Shown in pieces: positions 46,983 to 56,789 of a stretch of 64,000 nucleotides of DNA. Position 1 is the stretch's first letter; the number at the start of each line of letters is the position of its first letter. The position numbers were made by a program, and so were the translations under genes. The notes beneath the pieces were generated by a model. It did no database searches and was not told the DNA's origin. It saw nothing but the letters and a program-made list of their open reading frames with translations. This stretch comes from Bacteroidota bacterium (lineage in GTDB: Bacteria > Bacteroidota > Bacteroidia > AKYH767-A > 2013-40CM-41-45), in the NCBI GenBank assembly GCA_003389385.1, contig QQVM01000012.1, positions 1 to 64,000 of the forward strand, in the 5' to 3' direction.

Positions 46983-48110
46983 TTAATAAGTAATCACCTG
47001 TTGTTCCATGGCTTCAGGCATTTCCCTCAACTCATACTGCTGGTTTCTCAGCTTTGGAACGAAACCTGCTTCACGAATCGCATTCTGAATTCCATTGGAA
47101 GTAAACCTGTGTGGCGCGCCTGCCGCGGAAACAACATTTTCCTCAATCATGATGGACCCAAAATCGTTGGCTCCTGCATGCAGACAAAGCTGAGCTGTTT
47201 CTTTGCCGACTGTCAGCCAGCTGGCCTGAATGTTTCGAATATTGAGCAACATGAGACGGCTGATGGCGATAGTACGGATGTACTCCTCTGAGCTGACTCT
47301 GTTCCTGATTCCTTTTACATTCTTTAGTATGGTATCTTCATCCTGGAACGGCCACGGGATAAAAGAAATAAATCCTTTTGCATGTTGAGGCTTTTCACTC
47401 TGCACTTCACGCAATGCGACCAAGTGCTCAAATCTTTCCTCCAGAGTTTCCACATGTCCGAACATCATAGTAGCGGATGTAGTGATATCGAGTTGATGTG
47501 CGGCTCTCATCACATCAAGCCATTCTCTGCCTGAGCATTTGCCTTTTGAAATCAATCGTCTTACACGATCGGATAAAATCTCTGCTCCTGCTCCGGGCAA
47601 TGAATCGAGTCCGGCTTCTTTGAGTGTCTTGAGAACTTCAGTGTGAGTAGATTTTTCAAGCTTGGTGATATGAGCGATTTCCGGAGGACCGAGTGCATGC
47701 AATTTCAGATCCGGATACAATGCTTTCAATTCCCTGAATAGATTCGCGTAAAAATCCAGTCCGAGTTCAGGATGATGACCTCCCTGCAAAAGGAGTTGAT
47801 CCCCTCCATACCGGAAGGTTTCTTCAATCTTCTCCTTGTATTGATCTATTGTAGTAATGAATGCTTCACTATGCCCGGGTATCCGGTAGAAATTGCAGAA
47901 CTTGCAATTGGCAATGCAGACATTGGTTGTGTTTACATTCCGGTCTATGATCCAGGTAACATGATTGTCGGGATGAAATCTCTGTCGTAAGATGTTTCCT
48001 GCTTCCATCAACATTGCTGTAGGCGCATTTAGAAAAAGAAACTGACCCTCTTCAGCTGAAAGAAATTCCAGCTTCAGGGCTTTCCCGATTAAATCATTTA
48101 TTCTGTCCAT
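46983..48110 (-). CDS. mqnC: Cyclic dehypoxanthinyl futalosine synthase (radical SAM)
   Basis: 375 residues. Radical-SAM cluster motif CIANCKFCNFYR (CxxxCxxC) after WIIDRNVNTTN, then LLQGGHHPELGLDFY, LDSLPGAGAEILSDRVR, and TSATMMFGHVET. The WIIDRN segment before the cluster and LPGAGAEIL favour MqnC over MqnE. Part of the futalosine route to menaquinone, the quinone that a Bacteroidota complex I would use. Divergent from the aminopeptidase at 48215. Confidence 0.9.
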   Translation of the reverse strand: MDRINDLIGKALKLEFLSAEEGQFLFLNAPTAMLMEAGNILRQRFHPDNHVTWIIDRNVNTTNVCIANCKFCNFYRIPGHSEAFITTIDQYKEKIEETFRYGGDQLLLQGGHHPELGLDFYANLFRELKALYPDLKLHALGPPEIAHITKLEKSTHTEVLKTLKEAGLDSLPGAGAEILSDRVRRLISKGKCSGREWLDVMRAAHQLDITTSATMMFGHVETLEERFEHLVALREVQSEKPQHAKGFISFIPWPFQDEDTILKNVKGIRNRVSSEEYIRTIAISRLMLLNIRNIQASWLTVGKETAQLCLHAGANDFGSIMIEENVVSAAGAPHRFTSNGIQNAIREAGFVPKLRNQQYELREMPEAMEQQVITY

Positions 48111-48214
48111 ATATGAGGGATTCTCCTTCAGAAAGCAACAAATTACAAAAAAACATGTTTACTGGAAGCAGCAATAAATTGACTATTTTGCGCCTCTCAA
48201 AAATACGATTTTCC

Positions 48215-49657
48215 ATGCATATCACAATCCGTCAGGTATCCTCATTTACGGCAAAGGACACGATCATTTTACTTCTTGGTGACAATGAGAAAGTTCCGTC
48301 AGGGATTTTAAAATCGAATGATGAAAAAGCTTTCCTGGAATCGGAACTAAAAGCTGGCAGAAAAAGTGTATTTATTAACCAATATAAACGGCAGCTGTAT
48401 TTTTTCAAACCTGACTATAAGCTGGAGGAATACAAACTGCTGGAGAGCTGCAGAAAAGGCGGCGATACTATACTTTCTTCGGTAAACAGATATAAGAATA
48501 AAAAGGTAATAATACTTGACCAAAGCGGAGTAAAAAACCTTGCGATTTCATTTGCGGAAGGGATGGCGCTTGGTAATTATCAATTCCTTCGATATTTCAC
48601 AAAAGACAAAAAGAAGAACCTTAATTCACTTCAGGAAATTGGAATCAAATCATCATTTGTAAAAAGTGCTGATGCATCACAACTTGAGCATACTATTTCA
48701 GCAGTGTTTAGAGCAAGAGATCTTGTGAATGAGCCACAGTCATGGTTGAACGCAACTCGCCTGGCTTCTGAATTCGTAAAGTTGGGGAAGGAAGCACGAT
48801 TCAAAGTCGAGGTAATGAGGAAAAGCCGTATCAAGGCTTTGAAGATGGGCGGATTGCTGGCTGTGAATATGGGAAGTAAACAGCCGCCTACCTTTACTGT
48901 GATGACCTACAAGCCTCGCAATGCAAAAAACAAGAAGCCGATTGTATTAGTTGGAAAAGGTGTGGTTTACGATACAGGCGGACTTAGTTTGAAACCCACA
49001 GGTAACAGCATGGACTACATGAAAAGCGACATGGCCGGTGCAGCTGTGGTGGGTGCAACTATGTATGCCATCGCCAAAATGAAATTACCTGTTTATGTCA
49101 TTGCTCTTGTTCCTGCGACGGACAACCGGCCAGCAGAAGATGCTTACACTCCTGGTGATGTGATCGAAATGATGAGCGGGAACACGGTGGAAGTCCTCAA
49201 CACTGACGCGGAAGGCAGGATGATTCTTGCAGATGCTTTACACTTTGCCAAGAAATACAAGCCCGAACTCGTTATGGACTTTGCAACTCTCACCGGAGCT
49301 GCTGCAGCTGCTGTCGGACCATTTGGAATTGTCTGCATGGGCACAGCCGAAGAAAAAACCAAGGACAAACTGAAAGAGTCTGGTACGAAGGTATATGAAC
49401 GCCTGGCAGAATTTCCATTTTGGGATGAATATGACGAGCTGATTAAGAGCGATATCGCTGACATGAAAAATATCGGTGGACCGATTGCAGGAGCCATCAC
49501 TGCAGGAAAGTTTTTACAGAGATTTACTGACTATCCCTGGATGCACTTCGATATTGCAGGACCATCATTTCTGCACCAGCCGATGAACTACAGAGGAAAG
49601 AATGCAAGTGGTACCGGAGTAAGGTTTTTGGTGGATTATCTTCGGAACTTAGAGTAA
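48215..49657 (+). CDS. M17 leucyl aminopeptidase family protein
   Basis: About 480 residues from the ATG at 48215 (MHITIRQV), preferred because a TATTTTG box lies about 24 bases upstream; another in-frame start is at 48113. The catalytic C-domain is intact: VGKGVVYDTGGLSLKPTG, MKSDMAGAA (metal-binding Lys/Asp), VLNTDAEGRMILADAL and the ATLTGA segment. A di-zinc cytoplasmic exopeptidase of the PepA family. Confidence 0.9.
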   Translation: MHITIRQVSSFTAKDTIILLLGDNEKVPSGILKSNDEKAFLESELKAGRKSVFINQYKRQLYFFKPDYKLEEYKLLESCRKGGDTILSSVNRYKNKKVIILDQSGVKNLAISFAEGMALGNYQFLRYFTKDKKKNLNSLQEIGIKSSFVKSADASQLEHTISAVFRARDLVNEPQSWLNATRLASEFVKLGKEARFKVEVMRKSRIKALKMGGLLAVNMGSKQPPTFTVMTYKPRNAKNKKPIVLVGKGVVYDTGGLSLKPTGNSMDYMKSDMAGAAVVGATMYAIAKMKLPVYVIALVPATDNRPAEDAYTPGDVIEMMSGNTVEVLNTDAEGRMILADALHFAKKYKPELVMDFATLTGAAAAAVGPFGIVCMGTAEEKTKDKLKESGTKVYERLAEFPFWDEYDELIKSDIADMKNIGGPIAGAITAGKFLQRFTDYPWMHFDIAGPSFLHQPMNYRGKNASGTGVRFLVDYLRNLE

Positions 49658-49709
49658 ACGCCAGAGCTCGGTCACTTTGGTTTGTACTTTTACCATCGTC
49701 ATTCAGGTT

Positions 49710-49727
49710 GATCCCCATCGGGGATTG
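49710..49727 (-). repeat. REP-like palindrome (GAT loop)
   Basis: On the minus strand AATCCCC-GAT-GGGGATC followed by AACCTGAAT. It resembles the palindromes at 11425 and 11474 (GATCCCC-GAA-GGGGATC), with a changed loop. It lies between the M17 and pdxA genes. Confidence 0.5.
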
Positions 49728-49913
49728 CATTTTCCTTTTTTCAGATAAGTGTTTTAATAAACAATCTGAAAATTAATTAACTGAACGCATCTTTGTTTTA
49801 GGTTACCCCATCAGGAATCGCAACAATATACCATAGCTGAAAAGGAACGGGGCTCTCTCTCGCCAATAAATATTATCTTGCAGGGCGAAAGCGATTTTCA
49901 ATTTCATTTAATC

Positions 49914-50981
49914 ATGAGTCACCCTGAAAACGAAGGAAGAATAAAAGTCGGCATCAGCTGTGGAGACATCAACGGCATTGGCTTGGAAGTTGTCATGAAA
50001 GCTTTGCTCGACAACCGAATTCACCAGCTTTTCACTCCTGTCATTTACGCTTCCAACAAACTGGTATCGCTGCAGAGGAAAGCATTAAACCTGAATGATT
50101 TTCAGTATCAAACTGTAAAGAGCAGCAATGAAATCATACTGAGAAAAAACAATGTGATTAATTGCTGGGAAGAGGAAGTGCAAGTCGAATGGGGAAAGGC
50201 GACAGAATCATCGGGCAAGTATGCTTACCGTTCTCTTGAAGCAGCTGTAGCAGATTTAAAGAATAACAAAATAGATGTGCTGGTTACAGCGCCCATAAAC
50301 AAGCACAACATACAACACAAAGATTTCCAGTTCCAGGGACATACTGAATATTTGAGCGATCGTTTCAGCAGTCCGGATCACCTGATGTTTCTGGTGAGTG
50401 ATTCATTGAAAGTGGCAGTTGTCTCCGGACATGTGCCGGTGAAGCAGGTAGCACAGGAACTGAGCATTGATAAGATAAGGAAGAAACTAATGCTGATGGA
50501 TCGTTCACTCAAGAGAGATTTCGGCATTCGTAAACCACGCATTGCAGTACTCGGATTAAATCCGCATGCAGGCGATGAAGGCCTCATTGGAATGGAAGAA
50601 AAAGACATCATCATTCCGGCAATTAAAAAAGCATTCGACGATGGCATATTTGTTTACGGTCCCTACTCTGCTGATGGTTTCTTTGGCTCAGCTGCATTCA
50701 GGAAATTCGATGCAGTGCTCGCCATGTATCACGATCAGGGACTGGTACCGTTCAAGACTTTGAGCTTTTCTTCAGGTGTGAATTTTACTGCCGGACTTCC
50801 GATAGTACGCACATCACCGGATCACGGTACTGCATACGACATTGCCGGAAAAGGCCAGGCGAATGAAGAATCAATCCGCGATGCGATGTATTGCGCAATT
50901 GATATTCTGAAAAAACGTGAAGAATACGATGAGATTAACGCCAATCCGCTTGCATTTTCCAAGCAAGGAAGGGATCAGTAA
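49914..50981 (+). CDS. pdxA: 4-hydroxythreonine-4-phosphate dehydrogenase
   Basis: About 355 residues from the ATG at 49914; an upstream frame from a TTG at 49878 is rejected. Motifs SCGDINGIGLEVVMKAL, TAPINKHNI, GHTEYLSDRF, LGLNPHAGDEGLIG, ADGFFG, MYHDQGLVPFKTL and RTSPDHGTAYDIAGKGQA are complete. The Zn-dependent dehydrogenase of the DXP-dependent pyridoxal phosphate pathway. Confidence 0.95.
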   Translation: MSHPENEGRIKVGISCGDINGIGLEVVMKALLDNRIHQLFTPVIYASNKLVSLQRKALNLNDFQYQTVKSSNEIILRKNNVINCWEEEVQVEWGKATESSGKYAYRSLEAAVADLKNNKIDVLVTAPINKHNIQHKDFQFQGHTEYLSDRFSSPDHLMFLVSDSLKVAVVSGHVPVKQVAQELSIDKIRKKLMLMDRSLKRDFGIRKPRIAVLGLNPHAGDEGLIGMEEKDIIIPAIKKAFDDGIFVYGPYSADGFFGSAAFRKFDAVLAMYHDQGLVPFKTLSFSSGVNFTAGLPIVRTSPDHGTAYDIAGKGQANEESIRDAMYCAIDILKKREEYDEINANPLAFSKQGRDQ

Positions 50982-51027: not shown

Positions 51028-52287
51028 TCAGTTCTTTATTGCTTTAATTCGCAGAATACCTTTTTCAGTATGAAGGCGAATCATGTAATTGCCGGAAGCA
51101 ATTTTTTCAGAATTAATACTGACCTTCTTTTCTCCCTGGAAATTTTCAACATGAATTAGTTTCCCATCCAATGCATAAACTTCTGCCTTATAGACAATAG
51201 ACTCAGATTCAATTCTGAATTCTTTATCGGCAGGATTAGGATAAATGCTTGCATAATTATCATTTGAGAGAAAATCTATGCCGGTAGTGATGAATGTATT
51301 TGGCAGAGGATTAGGATCCGAGGGCTGGCAACCCATTAATCCGTATAGAAAATTGCTTACGAATTTTACAGTGGTATCCATGTATGCGGAACTGGACACG
51401 TAGGGCACATGGCCTGCCCCAAAATAAGTATACATGCTGTTTTGCAGACCGATAGTGTTGGCATGATCATGAATGGTATGACTGCCATCAACCTGCATCA
51501 GCGGAAATACTCCCAGCAAATAAATAATGTCGGTACCATAAGGAACCGTCTGGTCAACCGGTCCGTGCATGCTGACCAATGGTGCGTCACCGAGCTTGAT
51601 GTAATTTTTTGAGCCGAGCGCCCCACAAAGATTAATAACACCGCTTATGTGTGAAGGATATCCCGGATTGCCACTGCTTCCCTCCAGATTTCCCATTTGA
51701 ACCGTATCAATCACAGAAGGGATTTCAGAAACTTCATCAAGGTAGGCAAGATGCAATGCGGTAAAAGCTCCTGCTGAACTGCCTCCACCAAAAATCATAT
51801 CAGAATCTATTTTGTAGTCATTAACAGATGCGGCATCTTTTCTGAAAAAACGAACGGCGGCACGCATATCCTGCATGGCACGATAAACAGCTTTTGTAGC
51901 ATTGGTTTCATTCTGAGGAAAAGGTATTCCAAGACGATACTTGATGGAGGCACAAACATAACCTCTCTTTGCAAAGCGCGTGCTCAATGCCACTACATCC
52001 ACATCATTCTTAGTGCCGCTCAAAAAACTTCCACCATGAACCCATATGATTAATGGCCTCTGCGAAGCAGTGTCACCTGAAGGCTGGTAAACATCAAGTG
52101 TGAGTGTCTGAGTCACACCATTCGCATCTACAGCTGAGCCATATACAATGTTGCTGCTTATATCTACCGAAGAAAAGATTTCCTGATCATAACGAGGCAA
52201 TGAGCAATTGACTACCGTTTGTGCTGACGCTTGAAGAGTCAACAATAATGAAACGCTAAATATTAAGAATGGTATAGTTTTTTTCAT
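51028..52287 (-). CDS. Secreted alpha/beta hydrolase (esterase type) with T9SS domain
   Basis: About 419 residues from the ATG at 52287 (MKKTIPFLIF, a signal peptide ending ASAQ). Oxyanion motif LIIWVHGGSFLSG and nucleophile elbow FGGGSSAGAFTALHLAYL (GxSxG kept) are those of carboxylesterase/BD-FAE-like enzymes; a later SMHGPVDQTVPYG fits the acid region and GSHTIHDH the histidine. T9SS type A domain at the C-terminus (YPNPADKEFRIES, IASGNYMIRLHTE). Downstream paralogue of the gene at 52350-53915. Substrate unknown; an ester-linked carbohydrate or polymer is possible. Confidence 0.85.
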   Translation of the reverse strand: MKKTIPFLIFSVSLLLTLQASAQTVVNCSLPRYDQEIFSSVDISSNIVYGSAVDANGVTQTLTLDVYQPSGDTASQRPLIIWVHGGSFLSGTKNDVDVVALSTRFAKRGYVCASIKYRLGIPFPQNETNATKAVYRAMQDMRAAVRFFRKDAASVNDYKIDSDMIFGGGSSAGAFTALHLAYLDEVSEIPSVIDTVQMGNLEGSSGNPGYPSHISGVINLCGALGSKNYIKLGDAPLVSMHGPVDQTVPYGTDIIYLLGVFPLMQVDGSHTIHDHANTIGLQNSMYTYFGAGHVPYVSSSAYMDTTVKFVSNFLYGLMGCQPSDPNPLPNTFITTGIDFLSNDNYASIYPNPADKEFRIESESIVYKAEVYALDGKLIHVENFQGEKKVSINSEKIASGNYMIRLHTEKGILRIKAIKN

Positions 52288-52303
52288 GACTAAATATAAA
52301 ACA

Positions 52304-52330
52304 AAAAGAGCCACAAAATGCAGCTCTTTT
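52304..52330 (-). terminator. Hairpin between the two hydrolase genes
   Basis: AAAAGAGC ... GCTCTTTT (8-base arms) with T-run, just past the stop of the gene at 52350. It would separate or attenuate transcription of the downstream hydrolase. Confidence 0.55.
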
Positions 52331-52349
52331 AAAATCGATGAAGGAATTA

Positions 52350-53915
52350 TTAGTTCAATACAATTCTTCTGCTTACGGCTCCTTCAGGAGTCTGAACCCT
52401 CAGGATATAAATGCCTCCTGTAAGGTTCCCTCTTTCGTAAGTTTTATATGTATTGCTCCAATTCATATCTGTCCAGACTGTCCGACCGGTAATATCATGC
52501 AGACTTAGCATTTCAATCTTCGCTGTTTTGTCCTGAATGGAAACAGTGAAGGAAGAAGCAGACGGATTCGGGAACACAGTCATACTCCTGTTTACAGCCT
52601 GCACCTGATTGAGGCCAGTTGGAAGTGCAAGGCAATACGCGATCCTTGGATTCAAATAATTCTGAATAGTATCAATGTATGCAAGGGCTTTTGCTTTGGA
52701 CATATCAGGATTTGTAGCAAGTCCGTTCATATATGCAGCTGTTCCGGCTGAAGCCGAAAGGCCGATGGCTTGAGCGTACACAGTCAGAGCGGTACTGTCA
52801 TACCATTCCCACGGACCAGCCTCACCTGGAGCTCCCGGAGGAACCGGACGAAGCAGCGGGAACAGTCCGTCTTCACCACCGTTGATTCCATTTGCTACCA
52901 TAGTATATGGATCTGTGAATCCTGCTGAGCGGAAACAATCGTTATTACCAAGAAGATTTGCTTTTGTGATTACTGTCTGGCTTCCGCTTACATCCACTAC
53001 AAACTGAGGAGGCTGTGTAGGAACGAATACAGGTCCGTCGCCGAATGGGGCAAAAGGATCATTGGTAACATGGAAAGCTACCATAGGCACATCACCTGCT
53101 TCCAGCCAGCTGCTATCACCCAGCGCGCCGCCCATATTCACCGCAAAGCTAACAGCAGTACTATGTCCTGGTGAATTGTTCGGATTGTTCAGGTTTGGAA
53201 ATCCGCCAAAGCCTTCAAAATCGCCAAGAGCAGCCTGATTTACGTATGGCTGTCCAATCTGGAAACCATAGGTCGGATTGTTTGACTGTGATAAAAATTT
53301 GGTGAGCTGAATTTCTGCCACTCTGTTCAAGGTCGCGGTAGCAAGGGCGATGTAACCACCAGTACCCTGACCGACAAGGATTATTGTATTGGTGTCAACT
53401 TTGTATGTGTTACCACCATTCATTGCATTCTCGCGGAAGTAACGAATGCAGGCTTTTGCATCCTGAATGGCGCGGTAAACAGCCTGTAGCAGAGTGCCCG
53501 TTCTTACATCCTGGTCAGGATCGGTTGGAACCCAGCCTTGTCTGTATGCCACAGCAGCGGCAACATAACCGCGCTTGGCAAACTGCTTGCACATTTCAAC
53601 AGTAGCACTGTCTGTCTTTCCACCGGTAGGATTCTGGTTGGCAACAGCCGGAATAAAACTTCCGGTGTGGAAATAAAGGATAAGCGGGCGCTCTGTCATT
53701 GGATCAGCCATTCCCGAAGGCTCATATACATCCATTCTCAAATCCTGTGCTGTTGGAACACCGGAAGGGAAAATTGTAAAGTTATTACCATACACAACAT
53801 TCGACGTAACACTTGCGGAAGGAAACACTTCTGATACAAATCTTTGAGCAGACGCAGTGAAGCTCAAAGAAGCGATGAAAACACCTAAAGAAATTGAAAG
53901 TAAATATTTTTTCAT
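52350..53915 (-). CDS. Secreted alpha/beta hydrolase homologue lacking nucleophile serine
   Basis: 521 residues. Signal peptide 1-23 (ending ASAQ) and T9SS C-terminus (VFPNPSASSFTVSI, LTGGIYILRVQTP). It aligns with the next gene throughout: LILYFHTGSFIPA in place of HGGSF, and ILVGQGTGGYIALATATLNRVAEI in place of the GGSSAG elbow. The nucleophile serine is Gly here (codon near 53363), so it is probably not a hydrolase and may bind the same ligand. It is about 100 residues longer than its paralogue, with an insertion after the elbow. Immediately upstream on the same strand is a TonB-dependent receptor. Confidence 0.85.
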   Translation of the reverse strand: MKKYLLSISLGVFIASLSFTASAQRFVSEVFPSASVTSNVVYGNNFTIFPSGVPTAQDLRMDVYEPSGMADPMTERPLILYFHTGSFIPAVANQNPTGGKTDSATVEMCKQFAKRGYVAAAVAYRQGWVPTDPDQDVRTGTLLQAVYRAIQDAKACIRYFRENAMNGGNTYKVDTNTIILVGQGTGGYIALATATLNRVAEIQLTKFLSQSNNPTYGFQIGQPYVNQAALGDFEGFGGFPNLNNPNNSPGHSTAVSFAVNMGGALGDSSWLEAGDVPMVAFHVTNDPFAPFGDGPVFVPTQPPQFVVDVSGSQTVITKANLLGNNDCFRSAGFTDPYTMVANGINGGEDGLFPLLRPVPPGAPGEAGPWEWYDSTALTVYAQAIGLSASAGTAAYMNGLATNPDMSKAKALAYIDTIQNYLNPRIAYCLALPTGLNQVQAVNRSMTVFPNPSASSFTVSIQDKTAKIEMLSLHDITGRTVWTDMNWSNTYKTYERGNLTGGIYILRVQTPEGAVSRRIVLN

Positions 53916-53972: not shown

Positions 53973-56789
53973 TTACTTCGTTAATTCAACAAGCAAACTG
54001 ACATAAGCCAGGCGACCGATTTGAGGGCCTCCAAAGACCTGATAGTGTTTATTATTCAAAATATTGGATGCGCCAAACTTAAGAGTGGAATTCATTCGAG
54101 GAAATTTCTGATTCAACTGTACATCCACCAAACCGTAGTCGTCAATTTCACCTGAAAACTGCGGCGAGCCTTCGAATAAAAATCCTTTTACCCATTTATA
54201 AGTGACGCCAAATCCGAAGTTTCTCAGATAGAACAAGTCGAAAATATTCGCTTCCATGTCACGGGCACTAAAACCTACATTATACTTATGCTTTGGAGTA
54301 TTGTATGCCGGAATGATAGGATCCTCCGACCCGCGCTTGTCCAATTCATTCCATGTATAATTTCCACTGATGGTGTAGTACTTTCCTATGAAGTAATTCA
54401 ATCCGGCTGAGACTCCCTGTGTATGAACAATGTCCTCAGCATTGGATGAAATCCTGAAAATATTATTGACAGTAATTATGTCGCCGCTTGAAGGTGTACG
54501 CGTGGCGCTTACATCAGCGCCCAACTGAAATCCTATGAAGTCGCGATAAATACTGAAATAATAATTCAGGTCGAGATAGAGTCTTTTAAAGAGCGAAGCC
54601 CTGTATCCAATTTCAAAAGTCTTCACTTTCTCGGGCCTTACAGGATCCAGATCGAAGTACACCAGTTTATCAATGTTGATGAAACCGGTAAAGGCATCAC
54701 GAAGAGAAGGAATGGTCACCAGAGAATCATATCCATTGATGTTACCAAGCAAAATTGCGCGCCCTACATTGTAGTACAGATACTGATCGGCGAGTGTGGG
54801 ATTACGGATTGCGGAAGAAAATGAAAACCTGAAAATGTGCTCGGGCTTATAGGTGTAAACTAAAGAAGCAGCAGGAGAAATGAGAAAATCGAAATTCTCG
54901 TTCTTGTCATATCGACCCGTCGCACTTGCAATTAAACGATCATCCAGAAAACGCTTCTCAAGTCCGGCATACACTCCGTATTCCTGGTTTTCAATTTTTA
55001 TTCCTGAAGTGTCTGAAAAGATTGTTCCGTTAGAGTTTGGTCGGTACAGTCGAACATTTGCTCCTGTAATGATATCCATGAAAGAAGGAGTGAATTTATA
55101 TTCGGCTTGTGCATGGTATAAGGCAGATTTATCAAAAAACCTTGAGCCCCCTTCGCTGAATGTCTGTTTGGAAGTGATGGATGCGAATGCCGAATCAAAT
55201 CGATCTGTGCCGGGAACAAAGAAAGGAACAAATCCCCTGGCAGGATCTGCGAGGTTATCTGCATAAGCCCTTGCAGCATCATGAAACTTTCTCAATGAAT
55301 CAGGATAGTTGTTATTCAGGAATGGATTGATGGAGTTCTGATAGATGACAAACTTAGCTTCATAATCCGGATCACCAAAAGCTGGTGGCTGTGGATATCC
55401 GGGATATGACCTCACTGCGGTGAAAATCCTGTTCAGGGCCCAGTAGTTGCGGTAATCCTGGCTCCAGCGGAAATCATCCTTGGCTTCACGCTGCAACAGA
55501 AGGGCGGTGAAAAATGCATCGTAAGATTTTCCAGCATCTTCATTGGTCGCATAAACCCTTACGAAGAATTTATTTTCCTTTTTCAACTCAAGTCTGTTCT
55601 GGAAGAAGAGAATATCCTTCAGACTATATCGATTGTCACCCTGATAAACTGTAGTTCCAGTTCCAAAGCTTGATGCCGCAATAAGTTCCACATCATCCTT
55701 CAGTTTATAATGGAAAGCGGCTGTGGCTTTGAGGTTTTCAGAGTTATAATCAACCAGTGAACTTTCTGCATAACCGGTGCGGTAGTATGTACCTAATCCC
55801 GGGTTGGTAACCTGGTTTCTTGAAAAATCATTCGTAGCGAAATATTCGTCACCATAGATGTTCACGGCATCATAACCTCCGTGGCTCACGCCGTTTCTGG
55901 AGTCGATTGTTGGAGAAAGATTATTGGCTTCCCAGTCATCTGCTTCCATGTAGCGGAGGTTCAGCTTGTATCCAAACTTGTCTTTGCCATCCTTGTTCTT
56001 CAGAACCTGTGCCCAGCGTACAGAAGTTTCCTTCAGGTTTCGCTCTCCTACTTTCAATGAGATTTCCAAACCGGGCTGGACAAAAGGACTTCTGGTTGTC
56101 ATTGCTATCACACCGTTAAAGGCATTCGGACCGTAGTAAGCGGTGCTGGCGCCTGCGATCAGGTCCACTTTCAGCACATCAAGTTCCGGTGCGCCGAGAA
56201 AATTTCCGAGTGAAAAATTCAGTCCGGGCGACTGGTTGTCAACCCCGTCGATCAGTTGCAGAGAACGCACCGGAGAAGTGCTGTTGAACCCTCTTGTATT
56301 GATGACGGTGAAACCCAGCGAAGCGCTGGTGAGGTCGACGCCTTTCAGATTTCCCAATGCTTCATAAAAACTCGGCTGCGGACATTCCTTGATGGAAATG
56401 ATGTCCATGGATTCCACGGTCAGCGGAGCTTCTTTTTGTTTTTCAGAAACTCTCGCACCGGTAATTTCAACGCCTTTCAGCAACACTTCTTTCGGTGTGA
56501 TACGGGCGCTGACTGCTTTGTCGAGCGATCTCACATTTATTTCAAGTGATTCATACCCTACAAACGTAACCTGGAGAATAAATGGCGGCTTTGCATCAGT
56601 CTCAAGTTCGAATCTACCATCAAGATCGGTAATGGCCCCACCTGTTTCACCTTTGATTGTCACCGCAGCACCTATAATCGGTTCACTGGTTTTGTCATCC
56701 CTGATTGTACCGCTGATTTTTTGTGCCTGCACATTGCCGGCGCAGATCAGCAACATGAACATTAAAATCAGGCCTTTCGAATAATGCAT
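53973..56789 (-). CDS. TonB-dependent receptor
   Basis: 938 residues. Signal peptide 1-22 (VQAQ), then a carboxypeptidase-regulatory-like domain (SGTIRDDKTSEPIIGAAVTI, GGAITDLDGRFELETD; about 24-110), plug (ALGNLKGVDLTSASLGF, LQLIDGVDNQSPG; about 120-240), and a 22-strand barrel. An outer-membrane active transporter; substrate unknown, no SusD partner adjacent. Followed on the same strand by the two secreted hydrolase-like genes, a possible uptake/processing unit. Confidence 0.9.
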   Translation of the reverse strand: MHYSKGLILMFMLLICAGNVQAQKISGTIRDDKTSEPIIGAAVTIKGETGGAITDLDGRFELETDAKPPFILQVTFVGYESLEINVRSLDKAVSARITPKEVLLKGVEITGARVSEKQKEAPLTVESMDIISIKECPQPSFYEALGNLKGVDLTSASLGFTVINTRGFNSTSPVRSLQLIDGVDNQSPGLNFSLGNFLGAPELDVLKVDLIAGASTAYYGPNAFNGVIAMTTRSPFVQPGLEISLKVGERNLKETSVRWAQVLKNKDGKDKFGYKLNLRYMEADDWEANNLSPTIDSRNGVSHGGYDAVNIYGDEYFATNDFSRNQVTNPGLGTYYRTGYAESSLVDYNSENLKATAAFHYKLKDDVELIAASSFGTGTTVYQGDNRYSLKDILFFQNRLELKKENKFFVRVYATNEDAGKSYDAFFTALLLQREAKDDFRWSQDYRNYWALNRIFTAVRSYPGYPQPPAFGDPDYEAKFVIYQNSINPFLNNNYPDSLRKFHDAARAYADNLADPARGFVPFFVPGTDRFDSAFASITSKQTFSEGGSRFFDKSALYHAQAEYKFTPSFMDIITGANVRLYRPNSNGTIFSDTSGIKIENQEYGVYAGLEKRFLDDRLIASATGRYDKNENFDFLISPAASLVYTYKPEHIFRFSFSSAIRNPTLADQYLYYNVGRAILLGNINGYDSLVTIPSLRDAFTGFINIDKLVYFDLDPVRPEKVKTFEIGYRASLFKRLYLDLNYYFSIYRDFIGFQLGADVSATRTPSSGDIITVNNIFRISSNAEDIVHTQGVSAGLNYFIGKYYTISGNYTWNELDKRGSEDPIIPAYNTPKHKYNVGFSARDMEANIFDLFYLRNFGFGVTYKWVKGFLFEGSPQFSGEIDDYGLVDVQLNQKFPRMNSTLKFGASNILNNKHYQVFGGPQIGRLAYVSLLVELTK

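Follow-up and report, generated by a model that had tools for sequence, protein, structure and literature searches.

The window analyzed here is a 64,000-nucleotide stretch of a Bacteroidota bacterium (GenBank assembly GCA_003389385.1, contig QQVM01000012.1, positions 1 to 64,000 of the forward strand). On its minus strand a gene for a TonB-dependent receptor (T) is followed by a gene (A) whose product has the predicted fold of an alpha/beta hydrolase and lacks two of the three residues of the catalytic triad. A is nearly always kept with T in the Bacteroidia genomes we sampled, and the two very probably work together. On balance we favor the view that they form one functional unit, a TonB-dependent transporter with a dedicated, non-catalytic binding partner displayed through the type IX secretion system (T9SS). 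A first-pass annotation made from the sequence alone had described two paralogous hydrolase genes behind a TonB-dependent receptor, one (A) with the motifs HTGSF and GQGTGG and the other (B) with HGGSF and GGSSAG. Both open reading frames are where it placed them, on the minus strand and with these motifs, and T is upstream of them in transcription. The features of T and A are as follows.

53973..56789, minus strand: T, TonB-dependent receptor, 938 amino acids (CarboxypepD_reg-like domain, plug and beta-barrel); four Pfam matches, ortholog co-occurring with A.
52350..53915, minus strand: A, T9SS-type alpha/beta-hydrolase-fold pseudoenzyme, 521 amino acids, from its open reading frame, domain matches and predicted fold.
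53664..53666, minus strand: A Thr84 (in HTGS), where the oxyanion HGG has its second Gly-motif residue; 80 of 88 homologues have Thr.
53364..53366, minus strand: A Gly184, at the catalytic-serine position; Ser in none of the 88 homologues.
53058..53060, minus strand: A Asp286 (in DPFAP), the retained catalytic-Asp position; Asp in 85 of 88.
52866..52868, minus strand: A Gly350, at the catalytic-histidine position; no His among the 88 A rows (one gap), against 34 of 34 active-clade rows with it.
52359..52577, minus strand: type A T9SS sorting domain, residues 447-519 of A; PF18962 (Por_Secre_tail) at 34.4 bits (cut-off 27) and TIGR04183 at 36.5 bits (cut-off 23).

Both hydrolases pass the Pfam cut-off for BD-FAE of 26.8 bits, A with 46.8 and B with 79.8, and they share 34% identity over 333 aligned columns (E 5e-46). 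The A elbow GQGTG aligns with the B elbow GSSAG, placing A Gly184 on B Ser171, which bears out the proposed exchange of the serine nucleophile for glycine. B His293 (AGHVP) aligns with A Gly350, a second loss that the first-pass annotation had missed. Of the Ser-Asp-His triad A retains Asp286 alone, whereas the B triad is complete at the sequence level, Ser171, Asp245 and His293 being invariant in 12/12 close homologues. BD-FAE itself (PF20434; PDB 6tkx/6xyc), with which A shares Pfam domain and fold, has the full triad; its description names 6TKX and 6XYC as BD-FAE and gives Ser128-Asp237-His269, with an oxyanion hole formed through the NH of Gly53 and Ser128 (PMC8165983).

The predicted structure of A is an alpha/beta hydrolase of middling quality (mean predicted local distance difference test score, pLDDT, 70.1 from 17 sequences), in which parts of the active-site loops score below 50. 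Its best structural match is 5aoa (Z 21.7, root-mean-square deviation 2.8 over 232 residues). For the BD-FAE enzyme 6xyc the match has a Z of 20.8 and a deviation of 3.1. We rejected a nucleophile shifted through misalignment: the flanking glycines of the elbow stay in register, and a predicted strand (173-183) and helix (185-195) place residue 184 at the turn, so that the idea survives only as the rival based on Ser/Thr185 weighed below. Because nucleophile and base are both gone, A should not hydrolyze esters, and it is almost certainly without serine-hydrolase activity. For such proteins an "esterase" label taken from the domain match alone is likely wrong in mechanism.

The loss is not peculiar to this genome. 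From 117 matches to A above 150 bits, 88 homologues were left after removal of those identical over residues 61-300, drawn from the family, order and class of the window genome. Their elbow residue is Gly in 83, Asn in 3, Ala in 1 and Tyr in 1, and the residue next to it is Ser or Thr in 87/88. No A row has the catalytic Ser or His (one gap in the His column) and 85/88 have the Asp; in the sister clade that holds B, hereafter the active clade, all 34 rows carry Ser, Asp and His. Conservation in both clades (at 90% in A and 85% in the active clade) combined with a different residue in each is seen at just four columns: G>T84, S>G184, H>G350 and, next to the catalytic Asp, V>A289. Each of them lies at the catalytic centre. 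A recent strain mutation or a sequencing error at the elbow was thus rejected, Ser being absent from 88/88 homologues in family, order and class. The first-pass annotation had reasoned that a serine in close homologues would point to such a mutation; serine occurs only in distant relatives that lack the His, and the altered copy is conserved in relatives.

Some elbows are unusual: the second member of one tandem A pair has Tyr (L136:10123-11556), L117:7875-9446 has Ala, a tandem pair at L137:7018-10103 combines Gly and Asn, and L165 has Gln. L189 and L190 are stubs of no use here.

A tree of 129 of the 130 aligned proteins (one was too short), midpoint-rooted for drawing, separates an A superclade (95 rows) from the all-Ser active clade (34 rows), each with a Shimodaira-Hasegawa-like approximate likelihood-ratio (SH-aLRT) support of 100. 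The 88 homologues form a clade with support 99, and seven superclade rows from families f47, f52, f69 and f73 fall outside it. In these basal rows the elbow is Ser in five (f47, f69), Asn in one and Gln in one, and none has the catalytic His (one gap). The three further Asn elbows lie on the first branch of the 88-row clade (f9, f65), mixed with two Gly. If the midpoint root is right, His was likely lost first and Ser afterwards. The f47 and f69 proteins at L153, L155, L157, L158 and L170 have a GSSSG elbow and the Asp, with the catalytic His gone; possibly they are living intermediates of the triad loss.

The clades of A and B parted long ago, so by sequence the two genes are old paralogues. 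A recent tandem duplication was ruled out by the tree, by the absence of B from most A loci and by a hairpin between the two genes. The first-pass picture of a tandem pair with a degenerate twin needs correcting in this respect. A is under strong purifying selection, with a ratio of nonsynonymous to synonymous divergence (dN/dS) of 0.04-0.13 in seven pairs with estimable dS (one near saturation at dS 2.24). In three genome pairs compared for A, B and T, in most of which dS was saturated, dN was 0.128, 0.297 and 0.147, then 0.241, 0.358 and 0.232, and finally 0.184, 0.431 and 0.165, respectively. A thus changes more slowly than B and at about the pace of T, and because it evolves more slowly than the active copy in these pairs, "degenerate" is a misleading word for it.

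The first-pass annotation had also given A an insertion of about 100 residues. The total is right, but the extra residues are spread over three places (median lengths in A and the active clade: 135 and 69 after the Asp, 58 and 38.5 after the elbow, 41 and 33 after the oxyanion strand). The most conserved parts of A include the old active-site loops, HTG[SN]F, GxG[ST]GGY and DPFAP, together with an added PW[ED]W, and many residues conserved in A alone sit in those loops. The simplest reading of this pattern is that the loops would form a binding pocket.

Both hydrolases are predicted T9SS cargo, as had been proposed: Por_Secre_tail scores 34.4 bits in A and 38.2 in B against a cut-off of 27, and the genome encodes SprA (2654.9 bits against a cut-off of 200), the T9SS translocon. 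A Pfam scan of 80 of the 88 rows, with 8 left out, found the BD-FAE domain at E 0.001 in 80/80 and the sorting tail in 79/80; because of these tails A is probably located outside the cell. At the limits used, Pfam and NCBIfam scans matched A to hydrolase families and Por_Secre_tail only, and to no SusD family. Two A homologues of 1145 and 1268 amino acids (L144:843-4277 and L145:8413-12216) are fused to CBM20 and X25 starch-binding modules (with CBM48 in L145), followed by a dockerin-like stretch and then the sorting tail.

The association of A with T was scored in a class draw of 395 genomes, many of which look from their contig numbers like metagenome assemblies. With thresholds of our choosing (A at E 1e-45 or better, T at E 1e-150 or better), 163 genomes had both, 15 A only, 6 T only and 211 neither; at a stricter A threshold of 1e-54 the counts were 154, 7, 15 and 219. 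Five of the 15 A-only genomes were tree-tested and carry active-clade proteins (G229, G232, G258, G384, G418), G335 carries a basal A, and G255 and G280 lay outside the examined set. Among the T-only genomes, a basal A turned up in G293 and a contig-edge A fragment in G362, while G257 and G404 have weak A matches. The 12/12 genomes whose sole homologues fall in the active clade are without T (G001, G047, G056, G060, G077, G098, G104, G229, G232, G258, G384, G418). Within families f1, f5, f25, f31 and f45, A and T switch presence and absence together among the listed genomes, both being found in f25 in the same 4/14. Disagreements at these thresholds involve one to four genomes each in f7, f14, f27, f32, f42, f47, f54, f57, f63, f73 and f77. 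Prevalence of A is strongly sample-dependent, with 7/247 in a phylum draw (E 1e-45) against 178/395 (1e-45) or 222/395 (1e-25) in the class draw, where the figures include active-clade matches.

In 40/68 scored A loci T is the immediate upstream neighbor on A's strand, in 2 more it is within two genes, and overall it is directly 5' of A in 43/74 loci. The larger count restores three loci lost when a longer overlapping frame displaced A (L114, L124, L151), as adjacent, and three basal members lost to the same filter or under the score limit (L183, L184, L185), as not adjacent. Where the genes are unlinked in the genomes checked (G018, G041, G088, G117, G126, G139, G215, G293), T is found elsewhere in the genome. 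No third conserved neighbor family was found around T-A: across 88 loci, hydrolases occurred at 74 (the clustering merged A and B), T at 53 and the next best family at 8. The A and T trees agree in part. The T proteins of the basal-A families (f47, f52, f69, f73) group together with support 99, their sister group being those of the Asn-elbow lineages f9 and f65 (93), and the basal-A and Asn-elbow groups are likewise neighbors in the A tree.

T meets the Pfam cut-offs for plug (36.3 bits against 23.9) and barrel (95.7 against 27), and misses those for SusC/RagA (103.4 against 368.25) and the BtuB equivalog (42.9 against 599.7). The known uptake systems of Bacteroidota are chiefly SusCD, together with a small number of lipoprotein-lid systems. 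In SusC-SusD a TonB-dependent receptor and a dedicated outside partner are encoded by neighboring genes, and T-A resembles this arrangement. It differs in that T falls below the SusC/RagA cut-off and A belongs to no SusD family, bears a T9SS tail instead, and has a signal peptide that, judged by eye, lacks a lipoprotein cysteine. Two sources describe the known arrangements: a receptor with an adjacently encoded outside partner for SusCD (PMC11658791), and a vitamin B12 transporter with a surface lid, the genes in one operon, for BtuB-BtuG (PMC10404256). Like A, BtuG is a non-SusD surface lid that works with its receptor, but it is a beta-propeller lipoprotein, whereas A is a hydrolase-fold T9SS-type protein, and T is far under the BtuB cut-off. 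By analogy, the best reading is that T-A would work like SusCD or BtuBG with a different fold and export route, while being a member of neither. A literature search, with most subscription journals and preprints outside its coverage, found no paper describing such a receptor-pseudoesterase pair; "T9SS", "type IX" and "esterase" were absent in a word search of the main text of a 2024 review of TonB-dependent uptake (PMC11658791).

In the reading we favor, A preserves the alpha/beta-hydrolase scaffold and the mouth of its former active site. It has exchanged its nucleophile (Ser to Gly) and its general base (His to Gly), has altered the oxyanion hole in part (Gly to Thr), and has gained about 100 residues. 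A protein so altered should bind without cutting. A may then hold a ligand related to an esterase substrate, uncut, and hand it to T. From the sorting tail we infer a surface location, and beyond it ligand binding, contact between A and T, and uptake. That A binds a ligand for import through T is, in our judgment, a slightly better than even proposition. The first-pass suggestion that the degenerate copy may be a binding partner in substrate capture is the best-supported reading, although the capture role is something we infer; the link with the TonB-dependent receptor is real, and stronger than could be known from the sequence alone. The ligand could be a carbohydrate or its ester, though we would sooner expect otherwise; the starch-binding fusions of two A proteins and the conserved tryptophans fit a sugar-like ligand and are a weak lead. 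More tentatively than for the unit itself, T-A might represent an undescribed class of uptake system. Its capture subunit would be a T9SS-exported pseudoesterase derived stepwise from a secreted esterase, first by loss of the His and then by exchange of Ser for Asn or Gly, as its task shifted from cleaving a ligand to retaining it for import. If so, T-A would be a new import route, the unit being unnamed in Pfam and NCBIfam, and a stepwise case of an enzyme becoming a binding protein, with living Ser-, Asn- and Gly-bearing forms.

Several observations weigh against T and A acting as such a unit. T is not adjacent in 26/68 scored A loci, nor in three more. A occurs without T at the stricter threshold too (G273, G294, G301, G323, G344, G363, G381), although in G344 T is split into two frames next to A, and T occurs without an A match at E 1e-15 in G167 (99% complete) and G210 (80%). 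The co-occurrence counts are uncorrected for shared ancestry, and in the phylum draw, where A and T fall in the same 7/247 genomes, the first draw had already contained every one of the 7 positives and at least some of the negatives. The T tree does not put the basal group deepest; its root is unsure because two unrelated receptors admitted by a loose filter (L139:5433-7781, L144:4430-7495) set the midpoint. The structure model of T is poor (mean pLDDT 53.6 from 7 sequences). Finally, an unusual form of catalysis is conceivable, given the conserved Ser/Thr at the position after Gly184 and the Asp that A retains. Uncorrected kinship, the unlinked loci and the genomes that carry one gene alone would also fit T and A sharing only lineage and habitat, with separate jobs in an inherited neighborhood. 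We consider that very improbable, given the joint presence and absence within f1, f5, f25, f31 and f45 and the retention of the pair even where its genes are unlinked.

A role for A as a structural or signaling partner of T, acting as plug, anchor or ligand-induced sensor without substrate capture, is unlikely but the most serious of the alternatives. In its rate of change A roughly matches T, and no third gene family is conserved next to the pair. Hydrolase-fold pseudoenzymes can also be adhesion partners: in neuroligins and other cholinesterase-like pseudoenzymes the alpha/beta-hydrolase fold is reused for binding or adhesion with the nucleophile lost. Neuroligin-4 is the best solved-structure sequence match of B (E 2.4e-7) and also matches the A profile (E 0.001), although neuroligins are eukaryotic membrane adhesion proteins with only a distant relation to A and B. 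Yet the residues conserved in A alone include many from the old active-site loops, as would suit a pocket in use, and the carbohydrate-binding fusions of two members point to ligand binding. Somewhat less probable again is an enzyme with a rebuilt centre, using for example Thr/Ser185 or Asp286 and acting on the ligand before uptake by T. The hydroxyl residue at 185 (87/88), Asp286 (85/88) and the strongly conserved pocket motifs HTG[SN]F, GxG[ST]GGY and PW[ED]W would suit it, but no strongly conserved His follows Asp286 (the sole column with at least 25 His rows has 25/88), the elbow hydroxyl is one position off with the motif glycines otherwise kept, and Asn, Ala and Tyr are also found at the elbow. 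The loss of Ser and His alone would permit A to be a recently mutated or decaying, functionless duplicate of B, an explanation we regard as barely tenable because it is contradicted by the dN/dS values, the same loss in 88/88 homologues and the ancient split from B. Capture of a ligand by A for T remains the reading we prefer.

In the low-confidence T model, a helical segment (residues of about 424-538) lies between strands of the barrel and may be a large outside loop.

B, by its sequence, is a separate, ordinary-looking secreted esterase. It adjoins T-A in most members of the window's family, and it might share its ligand with A or act on another. Its features and the hairpin that precedes it are these.

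51028..52287, minus strand: B, T9SS-type BD-FAE-like esterase (predicted) with a full triad, 419 amino acids from ATG; Ser171/Asp245/His293 invariant in 12/12.
51775..51777, minus strand: B Ser171, predicted nucleophile (in GSSAG), from the triad alignment.
51058..51246, minus strand: type A T9SS sorting domain of B; Por_Secre_tail 38.2 bits (cut-off 27) and TIGR04183 40.1 bits (cut-off 23).
52304..52330, minus strand: terminator-like hairpin with U-run in the gap between A and B; 8/8 family loci examined.

The reading frame of B as called has 428 amino acids from a GTG at 52314. The alternative ATG at 52287 is the more likely start because that GTG sits within the terminator-like hairpin. Gaps in the window are 57 bases between T and A and 62 between A and B. 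In the window and in seven relatives the gap between A and B contains a stable hairpin with a U-run, which makes it likely that T and A are transcribed as one unit and B as a second. A promoter scan found 8 candidates against 12.2 in shuffled sequence. The T-A gap at L075 and L076 holds an inverted repeat without a U-run, perhaps a regulatory site.

Close B homologues (above 150 bits) were found at 12 distinct places. B adjoins A in the window and in seven related loci from the same family, lies two genes upstream of A and before T in L046, is on another contig than A in G005, and is present with no A found in G001 and G015. A third BD-FAE match in the window's genome, well above the cut-off, lies outside the window within a 732-residue frame (G000:C10:161446-162042, L200). 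Next to B, at 46983-50981, are three genes that by eye are an mqnC-like radical SAM gene, a leucyl aminopeptidase gene and a pdxA-like gene; they turn up at 6, 6 and 8 of the 88 loci, respectively.

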